Below, piece after piece: positions 46,008-52,050 of a stretch of 64,000 nucleotides of DNA (positions are counted from its first letter, which is position 1; every line of letters starts with the position of its first letter). The notes under the pieces are model-generated. The model made no database searches. It was given only the letters and a program-made list of their open reading frames with translations, and was not told the DNA's origin. The stretch is from positions 5,208,001 through 5,272,000 of the forward strand of contig NZ_CP114039.1 in the NCBI RefSeq assembly GCF_026965535.1, read 5' to 3'. The position numbers and the translations under genes were made by a program. The DNA is from Corallococcus sp. NCRR. Its GTDB lineage: Bacteria > Myxococcota > Myxococcia > Myxococcales > Myxococcaceae.

Positions 46008-47066
<1,059 letters not shown>

Positions 47067-47126: not shown

Positions 47127-47283
47127 AGTCGCTGAAGGGCTTACACCGCTGCCTGTTGGCTTACCTGCAAATATCGCAGAGCGAACTGGCGTCCGGGCGG
47201 CGGCTGTCCCACCCTCACGAATTTTCCCCGTCGCTGCTTCCTTCTAGGGAGCCTGACGTCTTCGCAGGGTGAGGAGTTCCCCC

Positions 47284-49797
47284 ATGGCCGATCCTGAATC
47301 ACCAACCCCCGGGCCCAGTCCGCTGGACGCGCTCGCGGTGCGCCTGGGGCTCGGGCGGCGTGGGGAGTGGGGCCGGCGCGTCGTGCAGACCCTCCTGCTG
47401 CTCGTCGTCTCGGTGGGCGCGGGCTTCGTCATCTCCCCGGGCCTCTACAGCCAGCAGATCCCGGCGCTCACCGAGGAGAACGTGGGCAAGCCCTTCCGGG
47501 CCAACTCGCCCGCCGGCTTCAAGGCCGCGCGCGACTACGACATCGTCCACCAGTCGATGACGGAGCAGCGCCGCCGCGAGGCCCGGAGCGCCGTGCGCCC
47601 GGTGTACGACCTCAACCCGGCGGTGGTGGGCAACCTGCGCGCGTCCGTGCGCGCCGCCTTCGCCTCCGCGCGCGAGCACCTGGAGGAGGAGAAGGACGCC
47701 CGCGCCGAGGAGACCCCGCCGGAGGAGGGCCAGGCCAGGCGCCGCCGCCCCGCGCCGCTCACCCCGGAGGCCCTGGAGCGTCAGCGCCGCGACCGCGAGG
47801 AGATGCAGGCCCGGTTCCAGGAGCAGCTCTTCGGCCAGCGCGACGCGGGGCTGGAGTCCGAGGACTTCCAGGCGCTCGTCGCCAACGGCTTCTCCGAGGA
47901 GTCGGAGACCGCCACCCTGGTGCTGCTGGACCGGGCCTACCGCGCGGACGGCACCCAGGTGTACGTGGCCGGCTCGCGGGAGGAGCTGGTGCGCGAGGCG
48001 CCCCAGGGCCTCACCGTGCGCGACGTGCAGCACAAGAACGAGGAGACGCTGCCCGCGGGCGCCGCCCAGGTGGTGGACATGCGGGAGGCGCACCAGGAGC
48101 AGGACCGCTTCGCCTCCGTGCCCGGCAACGTGATGCCGGAGGCCCCGGCGGTGCAGCGCCGCGCGGTGCTCAGAATCGCCAAGCGGCTCGTGCGCCCCAG
48201 CCTGACCATCAACATCGCGGAGACGGACCTGCGCCGCCGGCTCGCGGGCGACGCGGTGAAGGACGCCGTCATCGCCATCAAGAAGGGCCAGCGCGTCATC
48301 GGCGACGGCGAGCTCGTCAACGAGACGCACCTCGTCATGCTGCGCGGGATGCGCGCGCAGACGGACCGCCTGGACCTGCTCCAGTTGCAGGTGGGTGGCA
48401 CGGGCCTGGTGGCCCTGCTGGTGGTGGCCTTCTACGCCTTCTGCCGCGCGGCCTTCCGCCGCTTCCGCCCCACGCGCAAGGACGGCGTCCTGCTGGGCCT
48501 GTTGCTGGTGGGCCTCTTGGGCCTGCTCCAGGTCTGGGTGTCCATCGCGGACGCGGTGCAGGACCGCTACACGGCGCTACCCATCGAAGCGTTCTATTAC
48601 GCCTTCCCGGTGGCGGCGGGCGCCATGCTGGTGCGCTTCATCCTGGCCCAGGAGCTGGCGCTGTTCTTCGCCATGGTGTTCGCGTGCCTCGTGGGCGTGA
48701 TGCTGGGCAACTCGCTGGCGTTCGGCATCTACACGCTGGTGGGCTCGCTGGTGGCGGCGGACCGCATCGTCAAGGCGAAGGACCGCGTGGGCATCTTCCG
48801 CGCGGGCCTCGTCACCGGCGTGGCCAACCTCATCGCGGTGCTCTTCCTGTTCCTCGTGGAGGGCAAGGGCCTGGCCGGGGACACGGTCCTCACCGCGGTG
48901 TGCGCGTTCTTCGGCACCGCGCTCGCCGTCCCGGTGATGGTGATGGCGCTGACGCCGCTCATCGAGGCCACGTTCGGCTACGCGTCGGACATCAAGCTCC
49001 TGGAGCTGGCGAACCTGAACCACCCGGCGCTCAAGGAGCTCATCGTCCAGGCGCCCGGCACGTACCACCACTCCATCATCATCGGCACGCTGGTGGAGAA
49101 CGCGGCGGAGACGATTGGCGCGAACCCGCTGCTGGCGCGCTCGTGCGCGTACTACCACGACATCGGAAAGGGCCGGAACCCGCTCTACTTCGGGGAGAAC
49201 CAGAAGGGGGAGAACCGGCATGACGGGCTCGCGCCCGCGATGAGCGCGGTCATCATCAAGCGCCACGTCACAGAAGGCCTGGAGATGGCCCGGCAGTACC
49301 GCCTGCCCAAGCTGGTGGCGGACGCCATCCCCCAGCACCACGGCACGCGCACGGTGGGCTTCTTCTTCCACAAGGCCCTGAAGGAGCAGGAGGGCAAGGA
49401 AGGCGCGCCCCCCATCGACGAGAGCATCTACCGCTACCCGGGCCCCAAGCCGCAGTTCCGCGAGGCAGCGCTGGTGATGATCGCCGACGCGGTGGAGGCC
49501 TCCACGCGCTCCATGCCGGACCCCACCAGCGCGAAGCTCCACGCGCAGGTGCAGAAGATCATCAACGTCATCTTCTCCGAGGGCCAGCTCGACGAGTGCG
49601 ACCTGACGCTCAAGGACCTGAACCTCATCTCCCAGTCCTTCCTGCACACGCTGGAGGGCATCTACCACACGCGTCCCGTCTACCCGGCGGGCGCGGTGGG
49701 TGGGGGCAAGGGCGGAGGCGCGCCGCTGATGATGGCGCCCGCGCCCGCGAAGACGGACGCGAAGGACACGAAGGTGCGAACGGCGGGCATGTCATGA
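47284..49797 (+). CDS. pgpH: PgpH/YqfF-type 7TM-HD phosphohydrolase
   Basis: An 837-residue protein. A signal-anchor helix near residues 30-50 is followed by a large extracytoplasmic domain (about 55-360), seven membrane helices (about 365-590) and a cytoplasmic HD domain with YHHSIIIGTLVENA, YYHDIGKG (metal-binding HD) and HHGT. Homologues (PgpH) degrade c-di-AMP. The ATG following GGTGAGGAG was chosen over an upstream GTG. It lies between phoH and ybeY, with a 4-bp overlap to the latter. c-di-AMP as substrate is family knowledge, not shown here. Confidence 0.9.
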   Translation: MADPESPTPGPSPLDALAVRLGLGRRGEWGRRVVQTLLLLVVSVGAGFVISPGLYSQQIPALTEENVGKPFRANSPAGFKAARDYDIVHQSMTEQRRREARSAVRPVYDLNPAVVGNLRASVRAAFASAREHLEEEKDARAEETPPEEGQARRRRPAPLTPEALERQRRDREEMQARFQEQLFGQRDAGLESEDFQALVANGFSEESETATLVLLDRAYRADGTQVYVAGSREELVREAPQGLTVRDVQHKNEETLPAGAAQVVDMREAHQEQDRFASVPGNVMPEAPAVQRRAVLRIAKRLVRPSLTINIAETDLRRRLAGDAVKDAVIAIKKGQRVIGDGELVNETHLVMLRGMRAQTDRLDLLQLQVGGTGLVALLVVAFYAFCRAAFRRFRPTRKDGVLLGLLLVGLLGLLQVWVSIADAVQDRYTALPIEAFYYAFPVAAGAMLVRFILAQELALFFAMVFACLVGVMLGNSLAFGIYTLVGSLVAADRIVKAKDRVGIFRAGLVTGVANLIAVLFLFLVEGKGLAGDTVLTAVCAFFGTALAVPVMVMALTPLIEATFGYASDIKLLELANLNHPALKELIVQAPGTYHHSIIIGTLVENAAETIGANPLLARSCAYYHDIGKGRNPLYFGENQKGENRHDGLAPAMSAVIIKRHVTEGLEMARQYRLPKLVADAIPQHHGTRTVGFFFHKALKEQEGKEGAPPIDESIYRYPGPKPQFREAALVMIADAVEASTRSMPDPTSAKLHAQVQKIINVIFSEGQLDECDLTLKDLNLISQSFLHTLEGIYHTRPVYPAGAVGGGKGGGAPLMMAPAPAKTDAKDTKVRTAGMS

Positions 49798-50675
49798 GCC
49801 GCAAGGTGGAGGGCGTGAAGCTGCGCAAGGGCAAGGTCATTCCGCGCGACGACGGCAAGCGCATCGAGGAGTTCGTCGGCGTGGCCAGCACGCAGACGGA
49901 GTCCGCGTCCGTGGCGCGCATGCGGGCGCCGCCGGGCTGGAGCGAACCGGCGCAGACGCCGGAGTTCGACGAGGTGGTGCTCGTGCTCACGGGCGAGCTC
50001 ACCCTGGTGGTGGACGGCAAGCGCGAACGGATTGGCGCGGGCGAGGTCGGCCTGGTGCCGCGCGGCAAGCGCGTGGTGTACCGCAACGACTCGCAGGGCG
50101 CGTGTGACTACTGGTCCATCTGCGCCCCGGCGTTCCGCGTGGAGCTGGCGCACATCGAGAAGCCGGCGCCCAAGGCCAAGGCCGCGGACAACCACGTGAC
50201 GGTGCAGGTGGCGCACGGGCAGGGCGCGGACTACGAGCGCCTGCTCACCACCTGGGCCCGCGACTACCTGAAGCGCCTGGGCCTCACCGACTGCGAGCTG
50301 TCGCTGTCGCTCGTGGGGGACCGGGCCATCCGCCGGCTCAACCGCACGTGGCGCCAGAAGGACAAGGCCACGGACGTGCTGTCCTTCCCCGCGGGCGACC
50401 TGCCCAAGGGCACCCCGGGCCCCCGCCCGCTGGGGGACGTGGTCATCTCCCTGGACACGGCGAAGCGGCAGGCGAAGGAGTACGGCCGCACGCTGGAGTC
50501 GGAGATGGGCCGCTACCTCGCGCATGGGCTGTTGCACCTGTTGGGGCATGACCATGAGAAGCCTCGCGACGCGAAGCGCATGGCGGCCCTGGAGGAGCAG
50601 CTCCTGGGTGAGCGCGGCATGGTGGCGGACTCGCTGACCATCGACTCGCGCGCGCGCCGCGCGAAGCTCATCTGA
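49794..50675 (+). CDS. ybeY: cupin-YbeY fusion endoribonuclease
   Basis: A 293-residue protein, about double the normal YbeY length. Residues about 10-118 are a cupin-like domain (FDEVVLVLTGELTLVVDG, IGAGEVGLVPRGKRVVY), with the usual HxH metal motif absent. Residues about 125-293 are a YbeY with RAIRRLNRTWRQKDKATDVLSFP and the zinc motif HGLLHLLGHDHEKP. YbeY matures 16S rRNA 3' ends and quality-controls ribosomes. The single open frame and the ATGA overlap with pgpH show that the two parts are one protein. The cupin could sense a ligand or bind RNA (inference). Confidence 0.88.
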   Translation: MSRKVEGVKLRKGKVIPRDDGKRIEEFVGVASTQTESASVARMRAPPGWSEPAQTPEFDEVVLVLTGELTLVVDGKRERIGAGEVGLVPRGKRVVYRNDSQGACDYWSICAPAFRVELAHIEKPAPKAKAADNHVTVQVAHGQGADYERLLTTWARDYLKRLGLTDCELSLSLVGDRAIRRLNRTWRQKDKATDVLSFPAGDLPKGTPGPRPLGDVVISLDTAKRQAKEYGRTLESEMGRYLAHGLLHLLGHDHEKPRDAKRMAALEEQLLGERGMVADSLTIDSRARRAKLI

Positions 50676-50704: not shown

Positions 50705-50727
50705 CGTGCCTCGTGTTGGATGGAACG

Positions 50728-52050
50728 ATGCCCCGCCTGTCGTCTCTCATCGTCGCAAGCCTGTTGGGTCTCCTGCTGTCCGCGTCCCCCGCGCGCGCCG
50801 CGTCGGTGCCGCCATGGGGCACGGGCGAGAGCCGGGGCGAGGACCTGTCCATCTGGCTGGTGACCTTCAGCCCCGGCGACGACGTCTTCTCGTGGTGGGG
50901 CCACGGCTCGCTGGTGGTGGAGGACCGCTCCCGCCACATGCAGCGGCTCTACAACTACGGCATGTACTCGTTCGACGACCAGACGGTCGTCCACTTCGCC
51001 AAGGGCCGCCTGGAGTTCTGGGTCGGTGAGTCGAGCGTCAACGGCACCTTCCGCTTCTACAAGTCACTCAATCGCGACGTGCGCGTGCAGGAACTCAACC
51101 TCACGCCCGAGCAGCGGGTGACGGTGGCGAAGAAGCTGGCGGACAACGTGCTTCCGGAGAACCGCGACTATCTCTACGAGCACTACAGCGACAACTGCGT
51201 CACGCGCCTGCGCGACATGATCGACGTGGCGGTGGGCGGCCGGCTGTCGGAGGCGGAGAAGGCCCCGGCCCGCATGACGCTGCGCGAGCATACGCGGCGC
51301 TACACGGCGGTGAGCCCGCCGGTGAGCTTCCTGCTCGACTTCATGATGAATGACTCCATCGACAAGCCCATCACCCGCCGCGAGGAGGCCTTCCTCCCGG
51401 ACGAACTGGAGCAGCAGGTGGCGGAGCTGAAGGTACCGGGCCCGGACGGCCGGCCGGTGTCGCTGGTGGAGAAGCAGTGGGACTTCTACGCGTCGCCCAC
51501 GCGCGCACGGCCCCCCGCGCAGCCCCCCGCCTTCGGCTCGTACATCCTCGCGCTGGGCGTGCTCCTGGGCGGCGCCGCGCTGGGCCTGGCCGCGTGGGAG
51601 AAGAAGGGCAGCCGGGCGGCGCGCATCCTCCTGGGCCTGGAGAACGTGGTGGTGGGGCTGGTGCTGGGCATCCCCGGGTTGGCGCTCGTCGTCATGTGGG
51701 TGGGCACGAACCACGTCGTCACGCACCACAACGAGAACCTCTTCCTCGCCAACCCGCTGACACTCCTGGCCGTGCCGTACGGCCTGCGCCTCACCTGGAA
51801 CAGCCCGAAGGCGCGCTCGCGGCTCAAGTGGGTCTGGGGCCTGCTCGCGGTGACGGGCGCGCTGGGGCTGGCCGTCAAGATTCTGCACTGGTTCGACCAG
51901 GACAACTGGCGCGCCATCGCGCTCATCCTGCCCATCTCCCTGGGCATGGCCGGCGCGTTCTGGCTGGACCGCCTCCGGGCGCTCGTGCCAGGAACGGCGC
52001 GCACGCCGCCCCGTCAGGATGCTCAGGTGACTTCGCTCAAGGCTTCCTGA
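50728..52050 (+). CDS. DUF4105 (Lnb N-terminal periplasmic) domain membrane protein
   Basis: A 440-residue protein with a signal peptide (LLGLLLSASPARA), a periplasmic DUF4105 domain (about 25-230) and four membrane helices (about 270-420) in the C-terminal half. DUF4105 is a cysteine-peptidase-like domain; candidate catalytic residues are His in WWGHGSLVVED and Cys in YSDNCVTRLRD. In Gram-negative relatives this domain is described as the periplasmic part of Lnb proteins. Membrane helices with a periplasmic sensor suggest lipoprotein processing or turnover, which I state as inference. The ATG is preceded by a weak GGATGGAACG site. Confidence 0.82.
   Translation: MPRLSSLIVASLLGLLLSASPARAASVPPWGTGESRGEDLSIWLVTFSPGDDVFSWWGHGSLVVEDRSRHMQRLYNYGMYSFDDQTVVHFAKGRLEFWVGESSVNGTFRFYKSLNRDVRVQELNLTPEQRVTVAKKLADNVLPENRDYLYEHYSDNCVTRLRDMIDVAVGGRLSEAEKAPARMTLREHTRRYTAVSPPVSFLLDFMMNDSIDKPITRREEAFLPDELEQQVAELKVPGPDGRPVSLVEKQWDFYASPTRARPPAQPPAFGSYILALGVLLGGAALGLAAWEKKGSRAARILLGLENVVVGLVLGIPGLALVVMWVGTNHVVTHHNENLFLANPLTLLAVPYGLRLTWNSPKARSRLKWVWGLLAVTGALGLAVKILHWFDQDNWRAIALILPISLGMAGAFWLDRLRALVPGTARTPPRQDAQVTSLKAS

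Follow-up and report, generated by a model that had tools for sequence, protein, structure and literature searches.

The endoribonuclease YbeY, a nearly universal protein, takes part in the maturation of 16S ribosomal RNA (rRNA); what exactly it does in assembly of the 30S subunit is still debated. The solved YbeY chains that we found comprise 150-172 residues. A chain that carries YbeY together with a second domain has precedent in the YbeY-Era fusions, as described in the parts of PMC10582724 used here. Among cupins, EutQ is characterized, in the parts of PMC3483176 used here, as a dimer that has aromatic or hydrophobic residues in place of the metal histidines, a kept glutamate and a neighbouring aspartate. 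The present report concerns a gene of Corallococcus sp. NCRR in which a cupin precedes YbeY in one chain; it lies in a 64,000-nucleotide stretch of contig NZ_CP114039.1 (positions 5,208,001 to 5,272,000, forward strand), hereafter the window. A reading of the letters alone (the original prediction) had singled it out as a cupin lacking the HxH metal motif joined to a complete YbeY, a protein normally of about 150 residues, and knew of no description of such a fusion. Neither did we find one in the literature searched, most subscription journals being outside its coverage.

The features of the gene are as follows:

49794..50675, + strand: cupin-YbeY fusion gene, 293 aa, ATG start, TGA stop
49812..50159, + strand: cupin domain (metal-free, EutQ-like), residues 7-122, from Pfam Cupin_2, the structure model and family conservation
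49818..49862, + strand: basic N-terminal stretch, residues 9-23 (K9, R11, K12, K14, R18, R23), basic in fused proteins and rarely so in stand-alone relatives
50160..50192, + strand: linker, residues 123-133, fast evolving, from rates of codon change and length comparison
50193..50621, + strand: YbeY endoribonuclease domain, residues 134-276, from Pfam PF02130, TIGR00043 and the structure match
50523..50555, + strand: zinc motif HGLLHLLGHDH, residues 244-254 (H244, H248, H254)

Translation of this frame gives 293 residues with no internal stop, and both domains are recognized within the chain. Pfam YbeY (PF02130) matches residues 145-271 (E 4.4e-37; 127.3 bits against a cut-off of 25) and Cupin_2 residues 42-106 (E 8.7e-9; 35.4 bits against 27.2), while NCBIfam TIGR00043, at 137.1 bits against a cut-off of 45, names the protein rRNA maturation RNase YbeY. 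An AlphaFold2 model built from 49 sequences reached a mean predicted local distance difference test score (pLDDT) of 86.7 and a predicted template modelling score (pTM) of 0.52, with blocks above 85 pLDDT across both domains except at about 121-130, 201-210 and the ends. Residues 132-276 of the model match Aquifex YbeY (1oz9) with a Z of 22.1 and 1.8 Å over 140 residues. Residues 5-126 match many cupins, all tied at Z of about 14-15 (a Foldseek search was also run), among them DddK, Pac13, KdgF and proteins of the CENP-C/Cnp3 type. The single frame, the complete YbeY with its zinc motif and the cupin fold were thus all as the original prediction had them.

Sequence tests were made on 72 fused loci (same-genome duplicates from two collections included, the split records L060 and L132 excluded), which reduce to 53 distinct coding sequences. 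One frame holds both domains in 72/72 loci. The three histidines of the H-x3-H-x5-H motif and R187, which we take to be the conserved arginine of YbeY, are invariant in all 53 sequences; the catalytic roles of these residues are presumably those of other YbeY proteins. From these intact residues we infer that the YbeY part is an ordinary zinc endoribonuclease and 30S assembly factor.

The fusion is common in its own lineage. The class set comprised 147 genomes, 96 of them in the window's family, and counts were taken from the match listing. A single in-frame match spans cupin and YbeY in 65 of the 96 family genomes; one more (G068) has both domains with the frame split, which brings the total to 66/96, spread over 10 genera. 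The remaining 30 lack the fusion, one of them (G127) giving no match at all. A search of the phylum (195 genomes, 99 outside the family) revealed no fusion outside the family among the matches listed, the weakest matches being unlisted. A scan of genome contigs from 84,980 species, which met with 111 relatives, retained the 80 best and cannot see distant fusions, found both domains in 27 of those 80 (26 in one frame, L060 split) and a single domain in the other 53. These 27 records, which overlap the class and phylum genomes and should not be summed with them, come from Corallococcus, Myxococcus, Pyxidicoccus, Citreicoccus, Hyalangium, Archangium and Myxococcota bins, together with one further record (L046). 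The latter is labelled Comamonas sp. KCTC 72670 and consists of Myxococcus-like DNA with the fusion; it is probably a mislabelled record or a mixed culture.

Because 65 of 96 family genomes span both domains in one frame, the fusion is neither a product of chance nor an assembly artefact. A truly split gene was considered for G068, L060 and L132 (a metagenome-assembled genome), where cupin and YbeY stand in different frames, and was rejected in favour of an assembly error, since the neighbouring PgpH and Lnb genes are broken there too. Within the searched data the fusion is confined to one branch of the Myxococcota and is therefore a lineage-specific add-on.

The cupin lacks the metal site, as the original prediction had noted. 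Of the HxH...E...H ligands found in metal-dependent catalytic cupins, only the glutamate (E60) is present; Q54 and P56 occupy what we take, by the cupin motifs, to be the places of the HxH, and V94 that of the third histidine. In 37 stand-alone relatives the two HxH places have Q and P, and the motif glutamate is present, in 37/37 each. As the whole stand-alone source family shares it, the absence of HxH is ancestral and not special to the fusion. This family, of about 120 aa and about 40-57% identical to the fused cupin, occurs in Actinomycetota, Bacteroidota, Spirochaetota, Acidobacteriota and others, and the window's genome has a stand-alone paralogue of its own (L002, 39% identical). A profile built from 14 fused and 37 stand-alone cupins (51 in all) finds EutQ structures first (2pyt at 1.4e-6, then 3lwc and 4axo). 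Pfam EutQ (PF06249, cut-off 21) scores 20.7 bits on the whole protein and 22.7 on the cupin alone, and NCBIfam EutQ 13.8 bits against a cut-off of 193. In a genome of the same order a cupin of this family is fused to a UbiE-type methyltransferase (L151, 2163-3413), so the family has more than one fusion partner. An Actinomycetota bin carries a tandem pair of stand-alone cupins (L112, 4001-4658).

The original prediction had named two things that might undo the finding. One, a structure model without a cupin fold, did not come about. The other was a processed or internally started YbeY with a degenerating N-terminus; the cupin would then be a non-functional leader, with YbeY made from an internal start, or a decaying domain that is cut off. 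Between the window's gene and 21 orthologues, the ratio of nonsynonymous to synonymous substitution rates (dN/dS) is 0.07-0.46 for the cupin and 0.08-0.49 for YbeY, the cupin value being the lower in 13 of the 21 comparisons; for the linker region (residues 123-143) it is 0.32-2.9. Columns that never vary among the 53 sequences number 45/112 in the cupin and 60/143 in YbeY, and the linker, taken as what lies between PAF and VTVQ, measures 18-20 residues in 52 of them. Purifying selection acts on the cupin as it does on YbeY. Some orthologues do have an AGGAG- or GGAGG-like sequence ahead of a GTG codon that lies in frame at residue 135 or 137, and one genome (G092) manages without the cupin, which would suit a leader. 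However, a start codon preceded by a Shine-Dalgarno-like sequence is present near the YbeY start in 17/53 sequences against 21.2 (standard deviation 2.5) in 300 synonymous shuffles, 291 of which equal or exceed the observed count. A 5-base version of the test gives 10 observed and 12.6 expected. The AGGAG-like sequences are explained by glutamate codons in the linker, and the window's own gene has no such start signal before codons 135, 137 and 139. Codon evolution and the counts of start signals thus show no sign of decay or of selection for an internal start; we therefore reject the leader and hold it to be highly improbable.

What changed in the cupin after fusion bears on its function. Conservation of at least 90% among the 37 stand-alone cupins defines 33 positions; at 28 of them the same residue is found in 90% or more of the 53 fused sequences. 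E60, Y106, C110, W49 and F114 are kept in 53/53. The exceptions are E51, kept in 47/53; T55, kept in 23/53 (R in 18, K in 8); and T62, A104 and R121, kept in none, with V in 52, C in 53 and mostly M or I, respectively. T55 and T62 lie in or next to cupin motif 1, and R121 near the C-terminal end of the domain. V62 stands two residues past the conserved glutamate, the place that Asp102 takes beside Glu100 in EutQ (profile alignment, with the parts of PMC3483176 used here). Thirteen positions (9, 11, 12, 14, 18, 23, 76, 77, 79, 90, 92, 97 and 115) are basic in most fused proteins and seldom in stand-alone ones. The count of basic residues at these is at least 11 in 52/53 fused sequences, against a mean of 0.7 in the 37 stand-alone cupins and 0-2 in six stand-alone cupins of Myxococcota. 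Residues 76, 77, 90 and 92 may form one patch, since by the strand order turns 74-75 and 89-93 should share one end of the barrel. The basic residues gained after fusion lend weak support to a contact with RNA.

We favour, at a probability of about 0.4, the reading that the cupin is a non-catalytic binding domain which positions YbeY on pre-ribosomal RNA or protein. On this reading, a stand-alone, metal-free, EutQ-like cupin gene would have landed in frame at the junction of pgpH and ybeY in an ancestor of crown Myxococcaceae/Archangiaceae, the product remaining a single protein ever since. The YbeY part would work as usual on the 30S subunit. The cupin, its metal chemistry lost long before the fusion, would have dropped its ancestral job, been altered in or near motif 1 and acquired a basic surface, and would now place or hold YbeY on pre-rRNA or a ribosomal protein partner. 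We infer the docking role, the contact with RNA and the lack of catalysis with moderate to low strength.

Several observations weigh against a docking role. The pTM of 0.52 means that each domain is well defined but their mutual arrangement is not. The 13 basic positions were chosen post hoc for differing, which makes their count partly circular, and the most divergent fused protein (L059) has the lowest count, 8/13. All fused cupins descend from one ancestor, so that the basic gain is a single event; acidic positions were gained as well (19, 20, 68, 84 and 99). The net charge of the core goes from -7.2 to -2.5, but stand-alone cupins of Myxococcota are already at -3 to -6, and the shift is in part background. 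Finally, G092, a genome nested among the fused ones, has a YbeY that lacks the cupin, which makes the cupin dispensable.

The conserved pocket admits another explanation, a ligand sensor, in which the cupin would bind a small metabolite and gate YbeY, much as AraC-type cupins act with their DNA-binding half. This is possible, and nearly as likely as docking. It accounts for the retention of the stand-alone core, including the five residues kept in 53/53, and is in keeping with a weak Pfam AraC_binding match in 37 of the 51 cupin family members. Cupins that bind small molecules without metal do exist, as the partial sources used here describe for Pac13 with uridine and for the EutQ site; both proteins are among the structural matches, though tied with many other cupins. 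On the other hand, T55, T62 and R121, invariant in the family, are changed, and the ancestral ligand is therefore probably not bound in the same way. The family has no known ligand, and inspection by eye of 13 stand-alone loci, unannotated and parsed with a crude open reading frame picker, showed no recurring partner.

The kept pocket residues speak against a dimerisation module that only pairs YbeY chains or stabilizes the protein, as E60 and Q54, for example, would not be needed in a pure scaffold. Multimers are general among cupins according to the parts of PMC5656905 used here, the EutQ cupin CD1925 is dimeric in those of PMC3483176, and the structural matches include cupin domains of CENP-C/Cnp3; even so we think this function unlikely, and less likely than ligand sensing. 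The retention of 28 of 33 positions could also mean that the cupin keeps a metal-free catalysis of its own and is fused just for co-expression, as joined enzymes can be; the methyltransferase fusion of L151 would fit this. Against this bifunctional enzyme stand the changes at T62, A104 and R121 in 53/53 and at T55 in 30/53, together with the long stem of the fused clade (2.91 changes per column), and we regard it as decidedly unlikely.

Whether through a metabolite-sensing pocket free of metal or through a surface that docks on rRNA, the cupin could be a true regulatory domain that sets when or where YbeY acts; we consider this rather doubtful. The original prediction had envisaged a regulatory layer of this kind, formed by a ligand-sensing or RNA-binding addition, and is supported in part, namely for the two domains in one chain, the cupin fold, the intact zinc site and the missing HxH. 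Were it so, the action of YbeY on the 3' end of 16S rRNA and on defective 70S ribosomes would be controlled in starving, developing or predatory myxobacteria, by a control layer built into a ribosome-maturation nuclease and absent from other bacteria.

In a tree of 14 fused and 43 stand-alone cupins the fused ones form one clade (support 100/100). A firm grouping of 22 rows (99/98) unites them with eight stand-alone cupins of Bacteroidota, Spirochaetota, one Planctomycetota record and one record of the window's order (L133), and the own-genome paralogue L002 falls outside it. The narrower tie to Bacteroidota and Spirochaetota alone is weak (71/89), so that transfer of the cupin from another phylum is a lead and not a result; the long stem also makes the placement of the fused clade uncertain. 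L133 (899-3238, genome G010) carries its stand-alone cupin a short way past ybeY and prfB, in the same orientation, an arrangement that is a possible staging post for the fusion. A PgpH tree of 46 rows, made by a quick method, needs two changes for the fused state, with G092 (L123) and its plain YbeY falling between fused rows; holding the fused rows as one clade is not rejected (approximately unbiased test, p 0.067). A gain followed by one loss and a long-branch misplacement would both fit this tree. In G092, YbeY directly follows PgpH, and no cupin remains in any of three frames.

Upstream of the fusion lie two genes:

46008..47066, + strand: PhoH/YbeZ-like gene, usual genomic partner of ybeY (Pfam PhoH E 6e-97)
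47269..49797, + strand: PgpH-like 7TM-HD gene (Pfam/NCBIfam), overlapping the fusion start by 4 bases

The ATG of the fusion shares these bases (49794-49797) with the stop codon of the PgpH-like gene. Those fused loci that are long enough to show it repeat the order PhoH, PgpH, fusion, Lnb-like, PrfB; PhoH, PgpH and YbeY are here in their usual company, and there is no eut operon around the fusion, its neighbours being phoH-, pgpH-, Lnb- and prfB-like. Several unfused relatives have PgpH followed directly by YbeY, and others (L116, L125) have unrelated genes between them. In L116 (2583-3821) two other genes separate pgpH from ybeY; this junction thus readily takes up genes. The gene downstream of the fusion (50713-52050) encodes a distant relative of the lipoprotein N-acyltransferase Lnb, with 81 bits for Pfam Lnb_N (cut-off 22.2) and 153.9 for NCBIfam Lnb (cut-off 550). 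In E. coli, lnt is located near ybeY; the window's genome has lnt elsewhere (G000:C1:1821135-1822370, 209.7 bits, above cut-off).

An extra YbeY domain retained across 10 genera is a natural experiment, for it can be deleted, swapped or transferred to the YbeY of E. coli. The partner or ligand of the cupin may reveal what guides or controls YbeY, and the fusion is a first way into a family of stand-alone cupins that is widespread and for which we found no assigned function. If the cupin is only a stabilizer, the finding is a footnote on domain architecture.

Compared with described systems, the protein resembles YbeY in its zinc motif, conserved arginine, fold and PhoH/PgpH neighbours, and differs in having an additional N-terminal domain of about 120 residues, the solved YbeY chains found being 150-172 residues in total. 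Like the YbeY-Era proteins it carries YbeY and a second domain in one chain; in those, as far as the parts of PMC10582724 used here go, YbeY is N-terminal to a ribosome-assembly GTPase, whereas here it is C-terminal to a cupin without known ribosome link, and Pfam gives only YbeY and cupin-type families, with no Era GTPase domain, in the 293 residues. NF010570 (PRK13963, 261 positions) likewise describes a YbeY with an N-terminal extension, but only its YbeY part (positions 141-255) matches the fusion, at 73.4 bits against a cut-off of 274, and the extension is apparently another. With EutQ cupins (PF06249; 2pyt, 4axo) it shares a metal-free barrel with a glutamate in the place of the fourth ligand, although it lies outside any eut operon. 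The spacing is identical to that of CD1925 (94/96/100/134 there, 54/56/60/94 here), but where CD1925 has Asp102, the stand-alone family has T and the fused proteins have V (parts of PMC3483176 used here). The stand-alone cupins are direct relatives of the fused domain and differ from it in being single-domain and acidic and in conserving T55, T62, A104 and R121. Fusions of YbeY as such were already known; what is new is the cupin as its partner domain, in a single lineage.

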